A stretch of DNA of 64,000 nt from Candidatus Poribacteria bacterium (GTDB taxonomy: Bacteria; Poribacteria; WGA-4E; WGA-3G), in assembly GCA_003635185.1 (NCBI GenBank), contig PYJA01000113.1:22645-86644 (forward strand). The letters are read 5' to 3'. Below, in pieces: positions 5,925 to 59,752 of the stretch (position 1 is its first letter; each line of letters starts with the position of its first letter). Below the pieces are notes generated by a model that ran no database searches, was not told the origin of the DNA, and saw only the letters and a list, made by a program, of their open reading frames with translations. The position numbers and the translations under genes are program-made.

Positions 5925-6563
5925 GAGTCCCTCCGGTATGCGTTGTTCGAAAAATAGTGGGTTATGCACAATCGAGCCAAAAAGGGAGATTGCACAGAGC
6001 AAATCTGCTTGTGTCCGCTGATCTACAGGAGTGGAACGCGTTGCGTCAACGCATTGTTGCAACCAACGTTCAAGGTCCATCCCTGCGGGCGGTTTCATGA
6101 GTGGGGTGAAGGGCAGAAGTCCGGGTGCCTGCTTTTCTAAAATCGCTTGTCCTTCTATTGCGATAAGTCGTATAACCTTATAGCGATTGACGTATTCATA
6201 TCCGTTCTGCTTGTAGGCGTATCCGCCTAGGTCGTTCCTGCCGGCATTAGGATGGAAATAGATGACGTTAGAATAGACAGGCATCTGGTATTTACCGACG
6301 AGGTATCCCTGATATTGTGCGTTTCTTGCCCACATCGGTTTGTCTGTACTTTCGCGGAGTTGCAATTCGACATGTAAAATTGCTTCTTGATTGTTGATTC
6401 GGATGCGTTTTGTGATGTCGGTGCGCTTCGCGATGATAGTCTGTTGTTCGGTATCAAGATGCTCAAGTACTTCAACATCGTCAACATCAAGTACGAATTT
6501 TGAGAGGTCTTCGGCATGATCTGTCCATAAATTTTTCCCCATATTATCGTAATCTTGTGCCAT
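5688..6563 (-). CDS. Rpn-family (PD-(D/E)XK) nuclease/transposase-like protein
   Basis: This 291-aa protein begins at ATG 6563; the supplied ORF start (TTG 6599) falls inside the -35 box of a consensus promoter and is rejected. The N-terminal half has the PD-(D/E)XK pattern of the Rpn/PDDEXK_2 family: TDITKRI, then the HVELQL motif (ExQ in place of ExK). Helical middle and C-terminal regions follow. Known E. coli Rpn proteins are DNA nucleases linked to recombination and phage defence. An internal ATG at 5924 has its own GGAGGG 4 bases upstream and would give a 78-residue C-terminal protein, duplicated as a separate gene downstream. Substrate specificity is unknown. Confidence 0.8.
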   Translation of the reverse strand: MAQDYDNMGKNLWTDHAEDLSKFVLDVDDVEVLEHLDTEQQTIIAKRTDITKRIRINNQEAILHVELQLRESTDKPMWARNAQYQGYLVGKYQMPVYSNVIYFHPNAGRNDLGGYAYKQNGYEYVNRYKVIRLIAIEGQAILEKQAPGLLPFTPLMKPPAGMDLERWLQQCVDATRSTPVDQRTQADLLCAISLFGSIVHNPLFFEQRIPEGLMQESKFYQLLCEKLSERYTRETTIENTLALLERRFAVDAVRALVPALQSITDSQKLKQLHLEAAEVQNIEAFAQMLNE

Positions 6564-6569
6564 AGAAGT

Positions 6570-6599
6570 ATTATATACCGATAGGTAGAGAAATGTCAA
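6570..6599 (-). promoter_or_regulatory. Sigma70-type promoter of the Rpn-like gene (leaderless or nearly so)
   Basis: On the minus strand, TTGACA (6594-6599) and TATAAT (6570-6575) are separated by 18 bases; both hexamers are perfect consensus. Only six bases lie between TATAAT and ATG 6563, so the transcript should start at or next to the start codon. Confidence 0.8.
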
Positions 6600-6620
6600 T
6601 GTGAAAAGTATGTGGAGGCA

Positions 6621-6743
6621 GAGGCATTCAATTGTCGATTTTCACTATTGTTGGAGGGGTTTGTAACCCCGATTTCAGATGGACAGCCTGAAAATCGGGG
6701 TTACAAACCCCTCCAAAGATGTTTTGTGACAATTGAATGCCTC
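6621..6743. repeat. 123-bp palindromic MITE-like element
   Basis: Perfect 16-bp inverted ends (GAGGCATTCAATTGTC / GACAATTGAATGCCTC) enclose a second long inverted repeat built around TTGGAGGGGTTTGTAACCCC. The whole element can fold into a nested hairpin. No coding capacity. It lies between the divergent Rpn and TonB-receptor promoters. Confidence 0.8.
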
Positions 6744-6764
6744 TGGTGCTGTTATAGAAATTGG

Positions 6765-6794
6765 TTGACACCTTATTCCTGAAGATGTTATAAT
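6765..6794 (+). promoter_or_regulatory. Sigma70-type promoter of the TonB-dependent receptor gene
   Basis: TTGACA (6765-6770), 18-base spacer, TATAAT (6789-6794): perfect hexamers 38 bases upstream of ATG 6833. Confidence 0.8.
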
Positions 6795-6832
6795 TCACAT
6801 AACTTTACAAATCAGAATAGTGAGGCTGCATA

Positions 6833-8887
6833 ATGTCCAACACCAAACTGTACGCCATTAGGTTTCTCCTTTTCCACATTCTTTTTTTGTCTTTCGCTCA
6901 TTTTCTTACGGTTCAAGCCCAAGAAAACCAAAAACCGATAGAACTTGAGAAAATTGTTGTAACGCCTGGGCGATTTATGATTTATGATGGCGCGACCCCG
7001 CAGCTTTCACTTTCCAAAAAAGAGATAGAAAGGTTTCCATTAGTTGACAATGATATAATGCGTTCTGGGCATATTTTACCGGGCGTTACTGCAAATGATT
7101 ATAGCGCACGTTTCAGCGTTAGAGGTGGCGAAAAGGATGGTGTCTCAGTGAGATTGGACGGAATGGAACTCTACAATCCGTATCATCTGCAGGATTTTGG
7201 TGGGGCTGTTTCGTTGGTCGGGCTCGGTTTAATCCAACGGGCTGATCTGCTGATGGGGGGATTTCCCGCAGAATATGGACAAAAAATGTCGGGTGTGTTT
7301 GATATTACAACCAAGCCTCCGAATACAGAAAAGGTCTCAGCAAATTTCGGGATAGACCTTATCAACGCAACCACTATGGTGGAGGGACCTCTAACTGAAA
7401 AAGGCGGGTGGATGCTGTCAGCACGCCGCGGTTACGTTGACTTAATCCTTGCACTCATAGATCTTGACGAGGAATATAAACCACAATATGCCGATGTCTA
7501 TGGAAAACTGATGTATAAGGTAACGGAAGCAGATACACTCACGCTTAACGGGTTGTACGGTTGGGATAAAAATCTGATACGTGTAGACGATATAGATAAC
7601 AACTTGGATTCCCTATACGACAATTCAACCGTTTGGTTAAAATGGCGACATACGTTTGGCACTTCGTATTGGACAGATGTTTTTGTTTTTGGTGGCACAT
7701 CAAGTCAAGAAAGAACAACTGGAAAAAGCCAAAAGAGAACAACTGGAAAATCGAATTTTGACAATCGCGATTTTCGATTTTTAGGCACAAAAGCAGAACT
7801 CACAGTAAACGCATTTGAAAAACATACGTTTCGTACGGGGGTTGAGTGGCGTTGGTCTGCTGCCCAATACGATTACGACGTTCAAGAACGACAAGCAGGC
7901 ATAAACAGATATAAGCTGATTCGTGCAAATATTGACGACAGCGGGAGTGACATCAAATTATTCCTGCAAGATGAGTGGCAAATTCATCCGAAACTTGCAC
8001 TGAACGTAGGTGGGCGCTATGTCGTTCAGAACTATCGGAATTCAGATGTTCAAAACTATGAAATTGGGCCTCGTGTGGCGTTCGCGGTAAGTCCCAAGAA
8101 AAATTTAGTATTCCGAGGCGCATGGGGTGTCTATCATCAACCTGTCGATTTGATGTCAGTGCCTATTGAAGATAATATAAAGACCGTCGGACGCGCCGAA
8201 CAGGCAATGCATTATATCCTCGGCTGTGAATATACCCGTGGCAACAATTTTTTGATTCGCCTTGAAGGATACTACAAAAAATTTGATAATTTGGTAGGGA
8301 GACTGAGAGAATTTGGACGGCAAATGCAGATTTTTACACCCGCAGAATCCGCTGATGCAAAGGGATTTGATCTCTTCGCGACACAGGCTGTTTCATCACG
8401 TTTGACCTGGGGACTCGGTTACGCTTACGGCATCGCAAAAGAAACATCGGATAATAGGACAATCTTTCGGCAATATGACAGACGGCATTCCATTTTTCTA
8501 AGCAGTAGTCATCAAATTTCGTCAACATGGCACCTCTATCTCAGCTGGCGTTTTCATACGGGCGATCCGAGAACACCTTTGACTCATGAAAAGGTTCCCT
8601 TACCAGAGGGCAGTATTGCTTGTAATCGGCAGTTTGGCGAAACACATTCGGAGCGATTGCCAGCTTACCATAGTCTCGATTTTCGGATTACAAAGCGGAG
8701 CCCGTATAAACGCTGGGCACTTACATGGTATTTCCAAATCTTAAACCTGTATAATCATACCAATGTTGACCAATATGCGTTCAGTGAAGTGCGTGATGAA
8801 GTAACAGGTGCTATTACCGACTGCGTAATTGCGGAAGAACCGCAGTTACCTATTATTCCTACGTTAGGCATGACGATTACATTTTAA
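6833..8887 (+). CDS. TonB-dependent outer-membrane receptor
   Basis: This 684-aa protein has an N-terminal signal peptide (ending near VQAQ), then a TonB-box-like stretch (LEKIVVTPGR) and a plug domain (~45-170) with RFSVRGG, VRLDGMELYNPYH and GGFPAEYGQKMSGVFDITT. The remainder is alternating beta-strand barrel, ending in phenylalanine (TLGMTITF) as expected for Omp85-assembled proteins. Such receptors import siderophores, vitamin B12 or oligosaccharides using TonB energy; the substrate cannot be told from sequence. It has its own consensus promoter and a GAGG site ~8 bases before ATG. No TonB/ExbB/ExbD gene is in the window. Confidence 0.9.
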   Translation: MSNTKLYAIRFLLFHILFLSFAHFLTVQAQENQKPIELEKIVVTPGRFMIYDGATPQLSLSKKEIERFPLVDNDIMRSGHILPGVTANDYSARFSVRGGEKDGVSVRLDGMELYNPYHLQDFGGAVSLVGLGLIQRADLLMGGFPAEYGQKMSGVFDITTKPPNTEKVSANFGIDLINATTMVEGPLTEKGGWMLSARRGYVDLILALIDLDEEYKPQYADVYGKLMYKVTEADTLTLNGLYGWDKNLIRVDDIDNNLDSLYDNSTVWLKWRHTFGTSYWTDVFVFGGTSSQERTTGKSQKRTTGKSNFDNRDFRFLGTKAELTVNAFEKHTFRTGVEWRWSAAQYDYDVQERQAGINRYKLIRANIDDSGSDIKLFLQDEWQIHPKLALNVGGRYVVQNYRNSDVQNYEIGPRVAFAVSPKKNLVFRGAWGVYHQPVDLMSVPIEDNIKTVGRAEQAMHYILGCEYTRGNNFLIRLEGYYKKFDNLVGRLREFGRQMQIFTPAESADAKGFDLFATQAVSSRLTWGLGYAYGIAKETSDNRTIFRQYDRRHSIFLSSSHQISSTWHLYLSWRFHTGDPRTPLTHEKVPLPEGSIACNRQFGETHSERLPAYHSLDFRITKRSPYKRWALTWYFQILNLYNHTNVDQYAFSEVRDEVTGAITDCVIAEEPQLPIIPTLGMTITF

Positions 8888-9017
8888 TCGCGTGTTTTAC
8901 TTTACTAAAGTTTGGACATTATTGTTATATAGTAGATTTTAGAATTATGGCAGATTTTAGAATTACTTTGACACTCAGCACCAGCGAGATTAGGAACCCT
9001 CCACCTACCGCTTGTGT

Positions 9018-9046
9018 TGTAGCACAACCTGTTAGGTTATGCTACA
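9018..9046. repeat. Short hairpin repeat (TGTAGCACAACCT arms)
   Basis: TGTAGCACAACCT and AGGTTATGCTACA form a near-perfect stem. Related TGTAGC... stretches occur at 16078 and inside the elements at 31596 and 34685. This copy sits exactly where the IS1-type transposase reading frame ends, so it may mark the insertion that truncated it. Confidence 0.6.
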
Positions 9047-9551
9047 GAAATGTCCAAGTAATTATATGCTTTACTATAGTTGTCCATCCAATAGACCTTC
9101 ACATCCCACTTTCCCAAACGTTTCATAAGTTTCTTCAATGTCGCTTTATCCCGATCATCACACTCCCATGCAATGAGTTCTCCAGTATCACGACACAAAG
9201 CTTTCCATATCCAGAGTTGCTGCTTTTTTTCAGATAGTGCCACATCTCATCAAGTTCAAGCACGACGGTATCGGTTTCCTGGGGTTCAGGGGGTTTTGCA
9301 TGTTCAGTGCCGAAGCGACGTATCCACTCGAGGATAGTGGAAGGGGATGCTTGCAGCATTTTCGCGATGGCGTTCATGGAAAGTCCATGGCAATAGAGAA
9401 AAACTGCGAGTGCTTTCTCTGCAAGGGGGCTGCCTCTATATGTCCGGTTTTCTGTCCATTGATAGGCACAGTCTTTATACTTGTAACGCTGTTTTTTGTT
9501 GATGAACCCGTTTTTGACGAAGTGCAAGTGTTGACATCTTGGACAACTCAT
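9037..9551 (-). pseudogene. Truncated IS1-family transposase (InsA plus start of InsB)
   Basis: The first frame (9135..9551) encodes an InsA-like protein with an N-terminal zinc-finger (MSCPRCQHLHFVKNG, YKCKxC-type KYKDC) and a helix-turn-helix (MNAIAKMLQASPSTILEWI). It reaches LDEMWHYLKK, where a run of seven A residues (CTGAAAAAAAGCAG on the coding strand) allows a -1 shift into the second frame (QQLWIWKALCRDTGELIAWE...). This is the IS1 fusion point and the D of the DDE triad. The second frame stops after ~65 codons (YWMDNYSKAYNYLDISVA), so about half the catalytic domain is missing, replaced by a repeat. The element is probably dead. No terminal inverted repeats were found. Confidence 0.8.
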
Positions 9552-9587
9552 GTTAGAGTCTTCTGGTGTGTGTATATATTTATCTTT

Positions 9588-9616
9588 AGCATACTCTGTC
9601 TGGTGTTATACGTCAA
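9588..9616 (-). promoter_or_regulatory. Probable promoter of the IS1-type transposase
   Basis: On the minus strand, TTGACG (9611-9616), 17 bases, TATGCT (9588-9593), about 37 bases before ATG 9551. Confidence 0.5.
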
Positions 9617-9646
9617 AAAAACATTGAAAAAAACATTGTAATTTTC

Positions 9647-9676
9647 TTGACACTTTTTCAAATTAGTTGTTATACT
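9647..9676 (+). promoter_or_regulatory. Sigma70-type promoter upstream of the HigA relic
   Basis: TTGACA (9647-9652), 18-base spacer, TATACT (9671-9676), 19 bases before ATG 9695. The promoter has survived although the gene behind it is broken. Confidence 0.7.
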
Positions 9677-9694
9677 TTCAGTTATTGAACAGAA

Positions 9695-9922
9695 ATGAGG
9701 CAAGAGCGATATGAGGGACCTCTATCTCATTATTACTGAAAACCCTCTCAAGGACTCACCGAACATGATCTTGAACCCTATATCGGTTCACGTTCCTGCG
9801 TATCAGAAATCTTGAGTCGACAACGTACTTTGTCTTTGGACATGATTCGAAGATTACACAAAGGTCTTGGAATTTCGGCAGATATTTTGATTCAACCTTA
9901 TCCATTGCAAGCTGTGTCCTGA
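9695..9922 (+). pseudogene. HigA-type antitoxin relic (XRE helix-turn-helix)
   Basis: Not in the ORF track as a gene. From ATG 9695 the frame reads 14 codons, meets TGA at 9737, then continues open as GLTEHDLEPYIGSRSCVSEI...RTLSLDMIRRLHKGLGISADIL to a stop at 9920-9922. That second stretch matches the C-terminal helix-turn-helix of HigA antitoxins (DLxPYIGSRSxVSEVL, MIRxLHKGLGI). The N-terminal half is largely deleted. No HigB toxin is visible nearby. The call rests on motif recognition. Confidence 0.7.
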
Positions 9923-9985
9923 ATTCCAAGCTACATTTTCAATTATAATGATTTGTCATCACACCCCACAATATGGAGGTAAAAT

Positions 9986-12900
9986 ATGAAATTAGTAAGA
10001 TTTAGTCTTTTATGGACGGTCTTAGCATTTACTGCCCTATCAGTAAATGCAGGAGAAGGTTGGAAAGCACTTGATGTCGGCAATCTGTCGTCTGCTATTT
10101 TTAACACTGCAGTTGTCGGTTATCCCGAAAACCCCACCCAATATCCCTCGGGATGGTGGCCCGCAGGAACAAACGATTCCTACATATATGAAGGAGACAT
10201 CTGGATCGGTGCAAAAAAGAATGGGGAGGTTGGTGTCGCTGAAGCAGATGGCAGACAAAGCGAGATTTGGCCTATTGATTATTTAGATCCTGCTCTATAT
10301 CCTGAAGGTAAACGAGATCAGGTTACTTCAAATAAGCCCGGTGTAACGACAAAGGGAACGCCAACCGGTCAATCTATTCGGTTCAAATGTGCTGACACTA
10401 ATCTTAACGCAAATAAAGGGTTGGTTCTCGGTTTAGAAATTGAAGTCAACGGATTCCAATGGAGTTACGCACCGCTTTACGACTTCTTTATCCTTGAGTA
10501 TAACGTCAAAAACGTTGGAGAAGACATACTTGAAGACGTGTTTATGGCATTTCGGTACGACGTGGATGTTTCCAGTAACGAAACAGGGACAGCAAGTTAC
10601 TCTGCGGATGACTTTGTTGCACTGGATCAGACACCGGACGGTCTTAATCCCGACGGGCACCCGAACCGGTACCTCTCTTATGGGTACTCTAATGCGTCTG
10701 CGCCAGGGTACATCGGTTTACGCGTATTGGATGCATACATCGGTGATGATTCGAAGGATACTGCAGCCAAAATTCCTTTTACGGCGCACAAACGGATTAC
10801 CATAGACACGGATCCAACGACTGATGCGGAGATGTACGCGCTCATCAGCACCCCCGGTGTTGAACCACTTCCTGCAAACTACGACGATCAACGTTTTATT
10901 CAGTCCTACGGTCCGGTTGAAACGCTTGCTCCCGGAGAAACATTCAACGTCATTATTGCAGTGGCTATCGGTGAAGGGCTTGCAGGTTTGCAAGTGTCTT
11001 CGGATTGGGCACAAAAGTTATATGATGACGAATATGTCGCGCCAGCACCACCACCTTCACCCATGGTAACGGCTTATCCCGGTGACGGACAAGTCTCGTT
11101 AATCTGGGAAAGTGCTGGGAGATGGGTTGATAACGGAGTCAACAAAAGTATTGAAGAATATGTTGATGTAACCGACCCAGAGAAAATCTTTGAAGGCTAC
11201 AGAGTTTATAGACGGGATACTGCTTACGATGAAAACACCGGTGATCCTGTCCAAGACTGGGAATTATTGATGGAATTCGACAAACCGAGTGCCACCGGTA
11301 ATTTTTTCACGGTCTCACATGTTGGCAAGCAGTCAGACGCTATAATTGAAAGCATGGGTGATGAACCCTTCTTCGCTGCCTTCTTCAAAAGTGCGACCTA
11401 CGCTATCAAATTCAATTCCAGCACAAGTTTTGAGGTGATAAATACAACGTTGTGGGAAGTTATGGAATATAATGCCGAATTTCCAGCGAACGGTGGTGGG
11501 TATGTTGTCGTGAAGGATCCTGCTACAGGAGAACCGTATCCGGATGGAACGTACCGTTCTGGTGAACAGATATACTTCGGTGGACTCTACGTGAAAATAA
11601 CCGATGGTCCCTCAGGCCCGCCGGTAGCCGGTGATATTTTCCGTGTTGTTTCCACACCATCACAGGCACTCGGTGAAGACGTAGGTATTAAAAATTTCTT
11701 TTCTGACACAGGATTAACAAACGGCATTCAGTATACTTATGCGGTTACCTCTTACGACACAGGTAATCCCAAAAAAGGATTGCCTGCAATGGAAAGCAGT
11801 CAGATTGAGACAATGGTTCATGTTGTTCCACGTGCACATCCCGCCGGATATAAAGAACCTTCTGCAGAGGTAGACCCAGCCGGAAAAGTAGCCGTTACGG
11901 TTGAGCCAATGGTGTTAGCACCGGACAAAGTTACAGGGCATCAATATAAGATTGTTTGGTACGGTGCGAAACAGATAGGTAACGCGGCATATATTACTGG
12001 TCCCGGACATCAACCTCCGGCTTATGAAATCGTTGATACCACAACCAATCAAACAGTCGTTGAAAAGCAGACGTTTGACTGGTACGATGCCGGTCATTTT
12101 GAAGCGTTTGAGGCACTTTCTCCGATGTTTGATGGTATTATCTTGAAACTAACAGGGGTTAATGTTACTTACGGAAGCCCAGACGAAAACCCAATTGAGG
12201 ACGTTAAACTGACAGCGGGGACAGTCACAGACTGGTCGGTGAACATTGAATCTCCAGGGGCTGGCGAAAATACATGGCCAAACATTTATTGGTCTACCTA
12301 TTACCGTCCACATACCTACTCTATCACGTTTACTGACGATACACACGTTAAAGTTGTAGACGAAGATACGGGTGAAGAAATAAAATTCAACGACCAACGT
12401 GCTGATGGATATGCAATTTGGAGCGGCGCGGCTTGGGTTGATGAATATAACCCCGAAGGGACACCAGGTTTTTTCCGAATATTTATCCGCGGTGCTTACG
12501 TCTACATCAAAGACCCTAACGGCGAAATATCCGCGGGCGATGTATTCACCGTCGAAATGGGGGGCGTTGCTGCGCCACAGGATGGAGACGAGCTGCTGCT
12601 AACAACACAAGGTGAGTCGCTTGCTGCTGAAGACATCAAAGCTGATCTTGGAAAAATCCGTGTCGTGCCAAACCCATACTTTGTCACAAATAGAGCGGTA
12701 ACTTCTGAGGGAACGGATAAGGTCTTTTTCACACATCTGCCACCGCGATGCACAATACGTATCTATACATTAGTGGGTGAATTGGTGCGTGAAATTAAAC
12801 ACGAAGGTAACACTCCCTTCAACCCAGATGAACGGTTAGCACAAGGCGACAAAGGCGGCACAGCGGAGTTTGATCTGCTCAACCGCTACAATCAGGCACT

Positions 12901-53180: not shown

Positions 53181-53252
53181 GCCGCTATCGTCTTGAGGTC
53201 AGGACGGATGGTTCTCAGCCATCAAACCGGGGTTCGAATCCCCGTAGCGGTA
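53181..53252 (+). tRNA. tRNA-Glu (anticodon CTC)
   Basis: Acceptor GCCGCTA/TAGCGGT (one G-T), D-arm GTC-TTGAGGTCAG-GAC, anticodon stem GATGG/CCATC with loop TTCTCAG (CTC), and T-arm CGGGG-TTCGAAT-CCCCG. Discriminator A; CCA not encoded. Confidence 0.93.
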
Positions 53253-53348
53253 TTTCTTATCCATAAGGGCGGGTGTATACTACCCGCCTGTAGTTTTAAC
53301 GCGTCAATCCTTCTTAACTCAGACTACTACACATTGGAGAATACACAC

Positions 53349-55412
53349 ATGCACGATACCCCTAAACACACCAATCGCTTAATTCATGAAACAAGTCCTT
53401 ATCTGCTCCAACATGCACACAACCCCGTTGATTGGTATCCGTGGGGTGAAAAAGCGTTGGAACTTGCTAAACGTGAACAGAAACCTATTCTTCTCAGTAT
53501 TGGCTACTCTGCCTGTCACTGGTGTCACGTCATGGAACGCGAATCCTTTGAAAATGAGGAAATCGCTGCAATCATGAACGAACTTTTTATCAATATCAAG
53601 GTCGACAGAGAGGAGCGCCCCGATTTAGATGAAATCTACATGAACGCTGTCCAAGTGATGACTCGCCACGGCGGTTGGCCTATGACTGTTTTTCTTACCC
53701 CTGATCTCAAACCTTTTTATGGTGGCACCTACTATCCACCAGAAGATCGATATGGCAGACCGGGGTTTCCAAAAGTGATGCACGCCGTGGCAGAAGCATT
53801 TAATGAAAAGAACGCACAGGTACTGGAACAGGCAGATCAAATCACAACGCAGCTCAATCAGATGAGTAATCTCGTGGATTCGCATGAGCGTGAACTGACT
53901 GAAGAGCTGATGACGAAAGCCTTTCAACATTACCGTTCCCAATTCGATGCGCAATACGGTGGATTTGGCAATGCCCCCAAATTCCCGCCGAGCATGAGTT
54001 TACCTTTTCTCCTACGATATTGGCATCATAGCGGTAACGCGTATGCCTTAGAGATGGCAGAACTTACGCTGCAAAAGATGGCGCGCGGCGGTATATATGA
54101 CCAACTCGGCGGCGGTTTCCACCGATATTCTACTGATGAACGTTGGCTCGTCCCACATTTTGAAAAGATGCTTTATGACAACGCGCAACTTGTTGTCGCC
54201 TATTTTGAGGCGTATCAAGCCACGCAAAACACCTTCTATTGTGACATAGCCACAGAGACATTAGATTATGTGCTGCGTGAGATGTACGATGCTGAAAATG
54301 GTGGTTTCTATTCCACACAAGATGCGGACAGCGAAGGGGTAGAAGGCAAATTTTTTGTCTGGGAACCTTTTGACGTGGAAGATATTATCGGAGAAAAGAA
54401 CGCTGAAATTTTCTGTGAATACTACGATATTACACCGCACGGAAATTTTGAAGGTGAGAATATCCTCCACGTTCAAACGCCACCAGACATCTTTGCCCGG
54501 AAATTGGGAATGGATCAAGAGGAATTGGAGTCACTTCTTACAGATGGCAAACAGAAACTGTTTGCGGAAAGAGAAAAACGGATCAAACCTGGGCTTGATG
54601 ACAAAATCCTAACCAGTTGGAACGGTATCATGATACGCGGGATGGCGATGGGATACCAATTGACAGGAAAATCTGAATATCTTACTGCGTGCAAAAAGTC
54701 TGCTGAGTTTGTCTTGACGACACTTTCTCAAGAGGATGGACTTCTGTTGCGCACCTACCGTGCTGGTAAAAGTCATCTCAACGCTTATCTTGAAGACTAT
54801 TCCTATTTCATTGCTGGTTTAATCGCGCTTTATGAAGCGAGCTTTGACCCGAAATGGCTGTCTGAAGCAGAACGGCTTGCACACCTGATGATTGACCAGT
54901 TTGGAGATGAGTCAGGCGATGGATTTTTCTTTACAGGCAAAGCGCATGAGGCACTTATCGTACAATCCAAATCTGCTTATGATGGTGCTACACCTGCTGG
55001 GGCATCCATGGCGATCCACAGTCTGTTGCGTCTTGCTAAACATCTGGACAAACCGGAATTCCACGACAAAGCAGTAGAGACGTTAAAACTCTATTTTCAC
55101 CAGATGGATGTAATGCCTTCGGGTTCAGGTCAACTGCTTTGTGAGTTAGCATTTCTGCTGTCAACACCGAAAGAAATCGCTATAATCGGTGAAAAAGATG
55201 ATGCGAAAACGGATGCAATGTTTGCAGCGTTGCACGGCATGTATCTGCCCAACAAAATCGTTGCTTTAAGTGAACCGACTGAGGAAACAACGTTACCCCT
55301 TCTCGCGAACAAACCACAGATCGATAACAGTGCTACTGCCTATGTCTGTGAGAATTATGTTTGCCAAGCTCCTACGACAGAAGTTGATACGTTTGCAGGA
55401 ATGCTTCAGTAA
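53349..55412 (+). CDS. Thioredoxin-domain protein of the DUF255/YyaL family
   Basis: Start at ATG 53349 (TTGGAGA upstream); the supplied start at 53193 lies inside tRNA-Glu. The 687-aa protein begins [24 protein letters not shown]. It has the thioredoxin-like CxxC in [20 protein letters not shown], followed by [16 protein letters not shown] and [24 protein letters not shown]. An (alpha/alpha)6-barrel region then contains [35 protein letters not shown]. The family is widespread with poorly defined function (spermatogenesis-associated protein 20 relative). Possible redox or carbohydrate-related role. No signal peptide. Confidence 0.93.
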
Positions 55413-55431: not shown

Positions 55432-56805
55432 ATGAGTCTGACAGTCCAGGTAAAAAACATCGGAATCATAAAACAGGCGAAATTTTCGTTGGGTGATTTG
55501 ACGATCATCTGCGGCGAAAATAATACTGGTAAGACTTATATTGCTTATGCGTTGTATGGGTTTTTAAGTTCTTGGCGTGAATTTATCCCTATTACGATTA
55601 GTGATGTGCAGATCCAGCACCTGTTTACAGAGAAAACCCTCAAGATTGATTTATCACGTACAGGCGATTGGATACTTTCGGATGCTTGTGAGAATTATAC
55701 TAAGCAGTTAGATGAAATTTTTGCTGCATCTAAAGGCACATTTCAGAATAGTGAATTTCACTTCTTATCAAATGAGATTGATATTTGTAGTGAAGAATAC
55801 AACGGAAGTTATGGATCGTTTCTTTTGTTTTCAAAGCGAGAAGGAAGTGAAGAACTTACACTAACTTTGAAAATGGAAAAAGGAAAGGAAAGGGAAATTG
55901 ATGCCACTATTGTGAGAAATGCTATCAACGTCATTATCAAAAACGCTCCTTTTTTTGATTCTGTACCTAAACCTTTTATCTTCTCATCTGAGCGGACTGG
56001 GGTTTCTATTTTCCGAAAAGAACTTGATTATGCTCGCAGCCGTTTGCTTGATGATGTAGCATACGCTGATAAAAATATAGATATGCGTCAGTTGTTGTCT
56101 AAAGCATACCAAAGTTATCCTTCTCCGATTAAAGAAAATATAGACTTTTCTCGCCGACTTGACGACTTTGTAAAAAATAAAAGTTTCATCGCTAAAGAAC
56201 ATCCTGATGTATTGGAAGACTTTGCGGACATTGTTGGTGGAGAATATGCCGTAACACAACAGGACCAACTCTACTATATTCCAAGGGGAACACAGACAAA
56301 ATTGACGATGGTCGAAAGTTCAAGTGCTGTCCGTTCACTTCTGGACATCGGTTTTTATTTGCGGCATATCGCTGAAAAAAGGGACTTGATTATGATTGAT
56401 GAACCAGAATTAAGCTTGCACCCCGAAAACCAACGCCGTATTGCCAGACTTTTTGCAAGACTCGCGAACATAGGTGTAAAAGTCTTCATAACCACGCACA
56501 GTGATTACATCATCAAGGAACTGAACACACTCATCATGCTCAACCACGACAAACCACATCTAAAAACAATTGCCGAAGAAAACGGCTATCAGGAAAGTGA
56601 GTTGATAAAAGCGGATCAGGTAAAAGTCTATGTGGCAGAAACAGCGTTGATGCCTTTGGAAGAGGGACAGCAAAAACGTAGGAGAGGGCACACACTCGTA
56701 CCGGCTAAGATCCATCCAAAGTTCGGCATTGAAGTTCCAAGTTTTGACAAAACAATTGATGAGATGAACAGAATTCAAGACGAAATTGTGTGGGGAGAAG
56801 AGTAA
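55432..56805 (+). CDS. AAA-family ATPase (AAA_15/OLD-like, no TOPRIM), first gene of a putative defence pair
   Basis: Start at ATG 55432 (the ORF's earlier codons overlap the DUF255 gene). The 457-aa ABC/SMC-type ATPase has Walker A CGENNTGKTYIAYAL (~28), an inserted helical region, a signature-like VESSSAVRSLLDIGFYLRH, Walker B LIMIDEPELSLHPENQR and the switch His in VFITTHSDYII. After ~400 there is only a short basic tail, with no TOPRIM nuclease. Such stand-alone ATPases in the PtuA/AriA style work with a separate effector. The next gene starts five bases after this stop, so the two are co-translated. Confidence 0.8.
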   Translation: MSLTVQVKNIGIIKQAKFSLGDLTIICGENNTGKTYIAYALYGFLSSWREFIPITISDVQIQHLFTEKTLKIDLSRTGDWILSDACENYTKQLDEIFAASKGTFQNSEFHFLSNEIDICSEEYNGSYGSFLLFSKREGSEELTLTLKMEKGKEREIDATIVRNAINVIIKNAPFFDSVPKPFIFSSERTGVSIFRKELDYARSRLLDDVAYADKNIDMRQLLSKAYQSYPSPIKENIDFSRRLDDFVKNKSFIAKEHPDVLEDFADIVGGEYAVTQQDQLYYIPRGTQTKLTMVESSSAVRSLLDIGFYLRHIAEKRDLIMIDEPELSLHPENQRRIARLFARLANIGVKVFITTHSDYIIKELNTLIMLNHDKPHLKTIAEENGYQESELIKADQVKVYVAETALMPLEEGQQKRRRGHTLVPAKIHPKFGIEVPSFDKTIDEMNRIQDEIVWGEE

Positions 56806-56809
56806 CTTC

Positions 56810-57379
56810 GTGAATGATATACAGATATTGCAGGAAATGCTCAGTCCCGATGCTCAAGTTGTGTTACAACCAGGACAAGGCAGACCTTCTGTGGAATTAA
56901 CCGACTTGCGATCTGGCACAACTGTTGAAATAAAAGGATTACCTCAAAACTCTATTGTTATCAGGGCGGAAGATTTCGAAAATCCTCTAACTATGTTTAA
57001 TGGGTCAAAAGGCGAACGCAAGCGAGCTGATTTCGTAATTGTTTCCAATGACGACAATGAAAGAAAGTGGGTTATTTGTATTGAAACTCAAGAAATGGAT
57101 TCTAAACTGGCATCACATGTTATCCAACAATTAAAAGGCGCTTACTGCTTTATCAGTTACTGCAAATGTATTGGAAAATCTTTCTGGAAATTAGATGAGT
57201 TCCTTGATGATTATGAATACCGTTTTGTGAGCATTGTAGACATTAACTTCAACGCGAGCCGGCGGAGAACAGAACCTTTTGATTCTAAAGGTAAATTGCA
57301 TAACAATCCGGACCTTTTTCTGAAAATTTCACGGAGTCCTACAATCTACTTTCGCAAGTTAATCAATTTTGTGCCTTAA
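56810..57379 (+). CDS. Putative nuclease-like effector paired with the AAA ATPase
   Basis: Start GTG 56810 (GGGGAGAAGAG upstream; supplied TTG start lies within the ATPase gene). The 189-aa protein is unrecognised. Residues ~85-115 contain RKRADFVIVSNDDNERKWVICIETQ, an acidic-(x)n-ExQ pattern like the PD-(D/E)XK fold with Q for K. A helix (SHVIQQLKGAYCFISYC) follows, as in restriction-like nucleases. It has no transmembrane segment. Tight coupling to the ATPase suggests a two-gene anti-phage or abortive-infection system, an inference from architecture. Confidence 0.5.
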   Translation: MNDIQILQEMLSPDAQVVLQPGQGRPSVELTDLRSGTTVEIKGLPQNSIVIRAEDFENPLTMFNGSKGERKRADFVIVSNDDNERKWVICIETQEMDSKLASHVIQQLKGAYCFISYCKCIGKSFWKLDEFLDDYEYRFVSIVDINFNASRRRTEPFDSKGKLHNNPDLFLKISRSPTIYFRKLINFVP

Positions 57380-57446: not shown

Positions 57447-58820
57447 TTATACTCTACGGGTTGCAAACATATCTTCTACGGCGGGGATTGCGTCTGGCAT
57501 ACTGAAGACAATCACGCGATCGGCGGGCTGAATGACACTTTCACCACTGGGAATAATGAGTTTTTCGCGTCGAAGGATCGCGCCTATAAATGCGTTGTCG
57601 GGAAATTTAGTTTTTAACGAACTAAGTTCTTTGTGTGCAATTTTTGCGTTGATACCAGCGACAATCTCAATCACTTCGGCATCAATTTCATGAAGCGAAG
57701 CTACAGAGATAATATTGCCACGGCGAATAAGACGTAGTAGGTTGCTGACAACGGTCAAATGTCTGCTGACGGCTCCATCTAAACGGTGGATGCGAGTCAA
57801 CAACGGAAGATAGCGCGGCTGTTGAATTAAAGCGAGTGCGCGCTGTGCACCGTGTTCCTTTGCCGTCATACATGCCATAATATCGTTTTCATCATCGCCA
57901 GTTACCGAAACAAAACCGTTTACTTTTTCAATACCGGCTTCTTCTAATAATTGGAATTGGAGATAATTTCCATGGAGGACAGTTGTGCGTTTTAAAGATT
58001 GTGACGCGAGTTCTGCCAAGTTTTCATCTGCTTCAATGAGCTTCACATCGGTGCCATTTCCCTCCAGGACACGGGCGAGTTCAATGCCGATAGTGCTTGC
58101 ACCAACAATGATGACCCGTTCAAGATGCGGGTTAAAGAATATCCCGAAGAGCCTGAACAACTGTTCTATAGCCAATGCGCTACCGATGACAAATATATCA
58201 TCCCCCTGTTTGAGGATATCCCGCCCTTTTGGGATGATAACATCTTCCTGTCCGCGTCTTTTAATTGCTGCAAATCGTATATTTGATAAAACACCGTTCC
58301 TATCCAATTCGGCAAGAGATTTGCCTATGAAAGGATTTGCTTGTCTAATTCGAAACGCAGCGAGTTGGATTCTCCCATCTTCAAATTCAACGATTTCTCG
58401 TGCTTCGGGTGTTCTTAAGAGACGTGTAAATTCCTCAACACACAATTGTTCAGGATTAACAAGTAGATCAATTCCAAAATCTTTCGGTGTGAGTCCACTT
58501 TCATCCGAAAAATAGTCAGGATTCGAAACGCGAGCAATTTTGGTTTCAACCTTGTAACGATCTGCGATTTGGCAGGCAAGCATGTTAATCTCATCGCTGT
58601 TGGTGACAGCAATGATGAGTTCTGCATCACTGATACCTGCATCTTTGAGCAGCACCGGTGACGCGCCTGAGCCGCGAAGGGTTTGCAAGTCTAACTGTTC
58701 GTTAACGCGTTGGCAAGCCTCTTCGGATTCATCAATTAAGACAACGTCGTTATTATCTACTGTTAACAATTTGGCAGTATGAAATCCGACTTCACCTGCA
58801 CCTATGATGATTGCTTTCAT
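57447..58820 (-). CDS. trkA: Trk potassium uptake system peripheral protein TrkA
   Basis: Start at ATG 58820 (MKAIIIGAGEVGFHTAKLL); the supplied ORF adds 49 upstream codons with no support. The 457-aa protein has two TrkA-N Rossmann domains (GAGEVGFHTAKLL, VIVGASTIGIELARVLEGNGTDVKLIE) and two TrkA-C domains. It is the NAD(H)/ATP-binding regulatory subunit for a TrkH/G channel. No trkH is adjacent. It is convergent with the ATPase/effector pair. Confidence 0.93.
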   Translation of the reverse strand: MKAIIIGAGEVGFHTAKLLTVDNNDVVLIDESEEACQRVNEQLDLQTLRGSGASPVLLKDAGISDAELIIAVTNSDEINMLACQIADRYKVETKIARVSNPDYFSDESGLTPKDFGIDLLVNPEQLCVEEFTRLLRTPEAREIVEFEDGRIQLAAFRIRQANPFIGKSLAELDRNGVLSNIRFAAIKRRGQEDVIIPKGRDILKQGDDIFVIGSALAIEQLFRLFGIFFNPHLERVIIVGASTIGIELARVLEGNGTDVKLIEADENLAELASQSLKRTTVLHGNYLQFQLLEEAGIEKVNGFVSVTGDDENDIMACMTAKEHGAQRALALIQQPRYLPLLTRIHRLDGAVSRHLTVVSNLLRLIRRGNIISVASLHEIDAEVIEIVAGINAKIAHKELSSLKTKFPDNAFIGAILRREKLIIPSGESVIQPADRVIVFSMPDAIPAVEDMFATRRV

Positions 58821-58950
58821 ATTTTTAACTATTAAATCTGGGCACCTTTCTGAGGAAAGGGCAAGTTTCACTGGAAACCTACGGAAACTTCGAACTGTCT
58901 CGTTTGATGATTGAAGATCATCAAAACATCTTTGAGTACACAAAGATGCT

Positions 58951-59358
58951 TCACTGGTACTGTGCAAGAAGGTCAGCGGCTGTTACAATTAGGGTGCCCT
59001 GGTAACTTTTAAGGGGTAACAAATGTTTCCGATCACCAGTAACAATGTGAGTGGCACCCCCAACGACTGCACATTCTACGATTTTATCGTCGTCTGGGTC
59101 GGTAGTGATGCCCTTGAGTCGGTTAGTAATCTTAACTGTCTGGTGATAACCGAGGAGATTTGTAATCACTTCCAAGGTTTGTGAAGGGGGAAAATTAAAC
59201 TTAGTTGTTAGTTTCTCTTCAAATTCGTCAAGTATTTCGACGCATGTTATTCCTGCAACTTTACCCCGTTTTGCAAGTTCAATGGAGGCATAAGGAACAC
59301 CGCCCCAAATCGTGCCTGATATCAGAACATTTGTATCGTAAACAACTATTGGTTGCAT
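58951..59358 (-). CDS. PIN-domain toxin (putative toxin-antitoxin PIN family)
   Basis: This 135-aa PIN nuclease has PIVVYDTNVLISGTIWGG (first Asp), an EILDEFEEKL helix (second acidic residue), TTDPDDDKIVECAVVGGATHIVTGDRKHLLPL (third and fourth). It has the complete acidic quartet of a VapC-like RNase, of the PIN_3 subfamily. It begins within the antitoxin gene (13-base overlap). Confidence 0.9.
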   Translation of the reverse strand: MQPIVVYDTNVLISGTIWGGVPYASIELAKRGKVAGITCVEILDEFEEKLTTKFNFPPSQTLEVITNLLGYHQTVKITNRLKGITTDPDDDKIVECAVVGGATHIVTGDRKHLLPLKSYQGTLIVTAADLLAQYQ

Positions 59359-59603
59359 TCCCGGTCCTCATGGACAAGGTCATCAATAAAATTCTCACGT
59401 TCTGTTTCGGTCATCGTGTCCCAATTCAACCCTCGTGACGCGCAGAGCCGTCGAACCTGTGATTCAGCATATTTCATTCGTTCTTCGTGCCCAACGCTTG
59501 CCTTTTCTGCGAGTGCAATTAGAATTGTTCGTTTTTCTTGCGGCGGCATCTGTTGGATAACATCAATAACTTGTTCGGTCGTTAATTCAATTGTGAGGTT
59601 CAT
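59346..59603 (-). CDS. Cognate antitoxin of the PIN toxin
   Basis: Start at ATG 59603 (MNLTIELTTEQVIDVIQQM), nine bases after AGGAG; the ATG at 59612 abuts the ribosome-binding site. The 85-aa acidic, mostly helical protein has QMPPQEKRTILIALAEKA, of the type paired with PIN_3 toxins in cyanobacteria and Poribacteria. It overlaps the toxin gene by 13 bases, so the two are translationally coupled. DNA-binding domain not identified. Confidence 0.8.
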   Translation of the reverse strand: MNLTIELTTEQVIDVIQQMPPQEKRTILIALAEKASVGHEERMKYAESQVRRLCASRGLNWDTMTETERENFIDDLVHEDRECNQ

Positions 59604-59752
59604 GCCAAACATCTCCTGAATTTTGAATCCTAATTCTAATCAGAATTTTCCTGAATGTAAAACCTTTCTAAAAGGAGCACTTTATGTATATTATATCATT
59701 TTTTTGTCAAATTAACAACTTGTTTTGAGTGTGTAAATATTTTGTCAGTTGT

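Follow-up and report, generated by a model that had tools for sequence, protein, structure and literature searches.

The window analysed here (the whole stretch of 64,000 nucleotides) is part of contig C113 in a Candidatus Poribacteria draft assembly (4.57 Mb, 141 contigs). The locus of interest consists of two genes, A and B, which lie on the same strand behind a DUF255 gene. Their positions and main features are as follows:

53193–55412, + strand: DUF255/thioredoxin-domain gene (YyaL-like), the upstream boundary, which marks the chromosomal insertion site
55432–56805, + strand: gene A, OLD-type ABC/AAA_15 ATPase with no TOPRIM (PDC-M47A / PD-T4-4_A family), ATG start, 457 aa
55513–55536, + strand: Walker A of gene A, GENNTGKT (residues 28–35), with K34 in 74 of the 74 relatives aligned there
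55597–56016, + strand: hypervariable insert of gene A (~residues 56–195), a candidate sensing region
56386–56409, + strand: Walker B of gene A, LIMIDEPE (residues 319–326)
56497–56499, + strand: H-loop histidine H356 of gene A (TTHSDY), invariant (76/76)
56810–57379, + strand: gene B, predicted PD-(D/E)XK-type nuclease (PDC-M47B), GTG start, 189 aa
57029–57031, + strand: aspartate D74 of gene B (KRAD74), catalytic-type, invariant (68/68)
57083–57091, + strand: E92-T-Q94 of gene B, the (D/E)xK position with Q for K; E92 in 68/68
57128–57130, + strand: Q107 of gene B, in the helix following the ExK/Q strand (model helix 101–125), invariant (68/68)
57447–58967: TrkA-type gene downstream of B, convergent

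The earlier note on this DNA, made from its letters alone, had reported an ATPase followed five bases on by a 189-aa protein. Both reading frames were confirmed, with four bases intervening and the start of B at +5; the end of the DUF255 gene and the start of gene A are 19 nt apart. No other phage-defence gene directly adjoins the pair in the window. A promoter scan gave several matches, from which no conclusion was drawn. Some 1.6 kb past B, at 58951–59612 on the minus strand, lies a gene for a 135-aa PIN_3-domain protein (Pfam E = 4e-17); an 88-aa partner overlaps it upstream, and the duo resembles a VapBC-type toxin–antitoxin.

Gene A matched the Pfam families AAA_15 (E = 9e-28) and AAA_21, the latter labelled 'putative AbiEii toxin'. 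No TOPRIM domain was found in it with Pfam or PADLOC, and the protein ends ~90 aa beyond the ATPase domain; its description as an OLD/AAA_15 ATPase without TOPRIM was thus borne out. Among 76 relatives, K34, the S-S-S-A-V-R-S region (296–302), D323/E324 and H356 were invariant or nearly so. The best solved fold matches to the structural model (mean pLDDT 80.8) were PtuA of retron-Ec78/Eco7 and of Septu (E ~1e-9, TM ~0.35). Gene A is thus an OLD/Rad50-like ABC ATPase, and its ATP-site motifs are complete. Mean pairwise identity among the poribacterial proteins was 79–95% in most of the core, and 22–69% in most 10-aa blocks of the insert.

Gene B gave no significant match to Pfam, NCBIfam or the sequences of the PDB (the last searched with both B and its profile). 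When 50 members of its family were run against Pfam, HSDR_N and PDDEXK appeared, only below threshold; matches to DUF1088 and Nitro_FeMo-Co were dismissed as chance. Neither HNH nor AriB/TOPRIM was matched in Pfam or PADLOC, in agreement with the previous remark that the effector is not an obvious protein of either type. The AlphaFold model of B (pLDDT 89, pTM 0.88) places a strand (75–80) after D74, a second strand (86–93) ending at E92, a helix (101–125) and a further strand (136–143). This is the element order of the PD-(D/E)XK core, whose D...(D/E)xK residues belong to core strands two and three. The best Foldseek matches in the PDB were largely PD-(D/E)XK enzymes (BsmI, Mus81-Eme1, NucS, EcoO109I and BsaWI), all of them weak (E ≥ 0.0099, TM ~0.2); nothing fell below E 1e-3 there, and nothing significant was found among viral structures. 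On the PD-(D/E)XK fold that the earlier note had proposed to check, the core topology and the active-site residues of B are PD-(D/E)XK-like, but the fold match itself stays below significance. The sub-threshold HSDR_N and PDDEXK matches point the same way, and B likely adopts the predicted PD-(D/E)XK fold.

For gene B, an alignment of 68 relatives from many phyla showed nine invariant residues (L7, L30, P45, R72, D74, E92, Q107, G110 and Y117), while position 94 was occupied by K in 52 of the 68, by Q in the other 16, and by nothing else. The D...ExQ pattern pointed out earlier corresponds to D74...E92-T-Q94, and cannot be put down to chance since D74, E92 and Q107 never vary and no residue other than K or Q occurs at position 94. 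Fifteen of the 16 Q cases were poribacterial, the lone exception coming from Caldilineaceae (L052). The Q form is kept by selection, since dN/dS between Q–Q pairs was 0.04–0.19; on this sequence comparison, the site is an ordinary ExK in which one clade has changed K to Q, and the resulting ExQ is under purifying selection. With the lysine absent from 16/68 proteins, including that of the window, the ExQ form might be thought catalytically dead, leaving B as a binding-only partner (e.g. a structural or inhibitory subunit). This is quite improbable, however, since BglII and NotI are active enzymes in which Q replaces the lysine (PMC4081073), since dN/dS is low and D74, E92 and Q107 stay invariant, and since K-type and Q-type proteins replace one another across the tree, as equivalent enzymes would.

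Gene A was retrieved at 80 loci from Poribacteria, Latescibacterota, Cyanobacteria, several proteobacterial groups, Chloroflexota, Planctomycetota and Desulfobacterota, and B adjoined it in 76 of them, with A–B gaps among the relatives of –4 to +5 nt. The pair is therefore conserved, contrary to what the earlier note had named as counting against its reading. The four loci without B (L043, L062, L086 and L097) are explained by a contig end, broken genes or loss of B; B itself was found in 23 of 60 related genomes. One of the four, from Thiomargarita (L062:6037-7449), has an intact reading frame for a same-family ATPase with no B behind it, possibly a solo ATPase or a recent loss of the nuclease.

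The surroundings of the pair differ from locus to locus. Type III genes enclose the pair in Methylobacter (L047) and Nitrosomonas (L059), arranged Mod–A–B–Res, and B abuts Res. Same-family Mod and/or Res genes flank the pair in a series of poribacterial loci (L024, L026, L031–L034, L036–L038, L040, L041 and L164), and nine genomes (G019, G020, G028, G030, G031, G034 and G043–G045) have Mod or Res within ~10 kb of it. The fuller poribacterial islands run Res–ParA (AAA_31)–HEPN (RiboL-PSP)–small proteins–Mod–variable slot–A–B. At L026:3964-5502 this slot was filled by a 512-aa protein matching the fused AriAB of PARIS (PADLOC E = 7e-31); in L024 it held a 293-aa protein of no assigned family plus a PIN protein. 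In G020 (L164:1-14341) the whole island is bounded by the DUF255 gene on one side and a phytanoyl-dioxygenase-like gene on the other. The Res–ParA–HEPN–Mod island is shared by L164, L026, L032 and L036; a type III restriction–modification (R-M) system does not usually have ParA and HEPN genes lying between its Res and Mod. L164 also carries, directly before A (6455–11330), two tandem Mod genes, each ~75–77% identical to the Mod of L026, which amount to a duplicated type III modification/specificity subunit.

At the same DUF255 site, the pair occurs with no R-M genes in eleven loci (the window, L021–L023, L025, L028–L030, L039, L042 and L043), scored on the pair or on its contig-visible part. 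A type III R-M partner sought in the window's own genome returned distant matches only, none near the pair. The site is empty in the relatives G011 and G018, and holds only a gene for an FGE-sulfatase-domain lipoprotein in G002, G003, G008 and G014; G007 retains a stub of A, and G015 has A with no B. We infer that the DUF255 site is a slot in the chromosome where defence cargo comes and goes, the window copy being a stand-alone member. As to whether the pair recurs near other defence genes, the answer is yes for the type III R-M genes of Methylobacter, Nitrosomonas and Poribacteria and for the PARIS-like and HEPN genes of Poribacteria, but the window copy is alone, and among 119 proteins from mixed non-poribacterial flanks, counted with no matched control, methyltransferase-type matches were few, so no general island is claimed. 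The position behind the DUF255 gene in all eleven loci could be taken to reflect a DNA-repair or housekeeping role linked to that gene. Such a role is scarcely credible: the pair is missing beside the DUF255 gene of other relatives, in other phyla the surroundings are quite different, and the idea is largely refuted by the empty sites together with the mobile plasmid and prophage relatives.

The trees of genes A and B conflict. The window and L022 are 86% identical in A vs 50% in B, and the corresponding values were 87% vs 56% for L025/L032 and 85% vs 55% for L034/L036; the reverse pattern was seen in L026/L027 (72% in A, 98% in B). Within gene A, L029 and L030 are only 34% identical in the insert (~56–195) vs 83% in the core. 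Swapped pairs show a fall in identity in the C-terminal region of A as well. In L025/L032, L034/L036 and L029/L030, DNA identity was high in the core of A and beyond B, and fell in B. Identity at four-fold sites was 44–58% in B vs 60–75% in the A core (window/L022, L025/L032 and L034/L036), and since it falls at these sites too, the drop in B points to replacement of the gene rather than to amino-acid selection alone. In AU tests, for which the groups were chosen after the trees had been seen (rendering the P-values optimistic), the B data rejected the A-tree groups window, L021, L022 (P = 2e-6), L025, L032 (P = 5e-11) and L034, L036 (P = 0.003), and the A data rejected the B-tree pair L026, L027 (P = 2e-5). 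L025/L028 was dropped as a swap case, since the A data do not reject its pairing (P = 0.195). The K/Q state at position 94 requires seven changes on the A tree vs three on the B tree. Assembly chimerism is possible in drafts; L023, L026, L029 and L036 come from single-chromosome assemblies.

With neighbours 85–87% identical in A and 50–56% identical in B, the nuclease acts like a cassette that can be exchanged. A broader proposal would have the poribacterial system evolve by cassette exchange, with distant alleles taking the place of the nuclease gene and, separately, of the ATPase insert, and with the ATPase core and the chromosomal flanks left in place. The system would then have two interchangeable specificity slots, and K- and Q-type nucleases would be functionally interchangeable. 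This proposal we regard as evenly balanced between right and wrong. The conflict between the A and B trees, with an exchangeable nuclease, seems to be what is new here.

The locus is best read as a phage-defence system made up of two genes, of the 'OLD-ABC ATPase + PD-(D/E)XK nuclease' type, in which A senses, B cuts and the outcome is abortive infection; we consider this reading probable. Sequence and model contribute the ATP-site motifs, the active site and core of B, the kept pairing, and an accessory locus that recurs with type III restriction genes. The roles of A as sensor or regulator, of its insert as the sensing region and of B as the executing nuclease would follow by inference, and the anti-phage action, the need for both activities and the abortive outcome are taken by analogy from relatives. 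One of these, PD-T4-4 of E. coli, was obtained by selection for resistance to phage T4 and is carried by an ICE-like element (PMC9519451). Another, WonAB of the Vibrio WASA-1 prophage, is described as an OLD-ABC ATPase gene with a PD-(D/E)xK variant nuclease gene behind it, related to PD-T4-4 (PMC12137116). Its defence requires both genes, the ATP site of WonA and K71 of WonB, and acts by abortive infection, arrest coming after the onset of phage DNA replication and before capsid formation, with no restriction of phage DNA on entry (PMC12137116). By this model, gene A would dimerise on ATP and hold or stabilise B. A phage-dependent signal, perhaps read by the hypervariable insert, would alter the state of the ATPase and lead to activation of B, which in the window genome would use a BglII-like ExQ site. 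Active B might then cleave nucleic acid (DNA or RNA), halting the infected cell before new virions assemble.

Direct destruction of incoming phage DNA by B, as in restriction and with no arrest of the host, would suit both a fold superfamily to which DNA-restriction enzymes belong and the location of the pair within type III R-M operons; moreover, of 11 systems with a putative DNase in an E. coli screen, 7 conferred immunity directly (PMC9519451). We nevertheless think it unlikely, given that WonAB, described as having the same architecture, is abortive and that the stand-alone copy has no conserved methylase. That the pair is a toxin–antitoxin or selfish addiction unit with no immune role is very improbable: its close relatives came from anti-phage selection and act on phage, it is associated with R-M, PARIS-like and HEPN genes, and defence by WonAB takes both genes, even though a small two-gene operon subject to repeated loss and decay, with an ATPase matching AAA_21 and its AbiEii label, is what might be expected of such a unit. 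The abortive ATPase–nuclease system thus remains the preferred reading, and the proposal of a candidate anti-phage ATPase–nuclease module stands, by way of the PDC-M47A/B matches, the homology to PD-T4-4 and the R-M context. Two refinements apply to it: the pair is already catalogued, and its ExQ is a lineage variant of ExK.

The pair would represent a stand-alone case of a widespread immune class in which OLD-ABC ATPase sensors work with detached nucleases. Poribacteria offer natural experiments in this class: near-same ATPases with different nucleases, near-same nucleases with different ATPase inserts, and the K-to-Q switch. Allele swaps between them in a laboratory host could separate the part that senses the phage from the part that determines the outcome, which the papers on WonAB and PD-T4-4 leave open. 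For a specialist, most of the value lies in the cassette-exchange pattern and the natural K/Q variation.

When set against known systems, gene A differs from OLD and Gabija GajA, in which TOPRIM is fused to the ATPase. Septu and the PtuAB of retron-Ec78 are also two-gene ATPase–nuclease systems, and PtuA provided the best solved fold match, but PtuB of Septu is an HNH nuclease and B is not. PARIS AriAB follows the same logic, and the AriA profile matches gene A (E = 5e-30), although PDC-M47A and PD-T4-4_A score far above it, and AriB is a TOPRIM nuclease while B is PD-(D/E)XK-like. WonAB is likened to the window pair by its published description alone; in its group the ATPase inserts and the C-terminus are said to vary (PMC12137116). 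By sequence the pair is not new, being catalogued as PADLOC candidate PDC-M47: A matched PDC-M47A over residues 4–457 (E = 6.9e-190) and B matched PDC-M47B (E = 1.8e-56), both near full length, in the same order, adjacent and on the same strand, with the difference that in the window copy Q stands in for the K of ExK. PDC-M47 is listed in PADLOC as a candidate only, and no experimental report of it was found. The PD-T4-4-type pairs compared came from plasmids and a Vibrio prophage. One of them, on a Serratia marcescens plasmid (L149:2917-5377), has a shortened ATPase gene and lies between inverted copies of a block of genes that includes a recombinase; in the temperate Vibrio phage 1.202.O (L150:1785-5548), a homologous ATPase–nuclease pair sits between a CI repressor and an integrase-type gene, a placement like that of prophage-carried defence cargo. 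PD-T4-4 has the same gene order as the window pair, and at profile level both its ATPase (hhalign E = 2e-85) and its nuclease (E = 7.5e-12) are homologous. Gene A matched PD-T4-4_A with an E-value (3.6e-150) second only to that for PDC-M47A, but B reached only E = 0.012 against PD-T4-4_B, a far diverged protein with the motif D-x-K-S instead of E-x-K/Q. On these sequence comparisons the window pair is a relative of PD-T4-4 and not a member of it, PDC-M47 being a sister of PD-T4-4.
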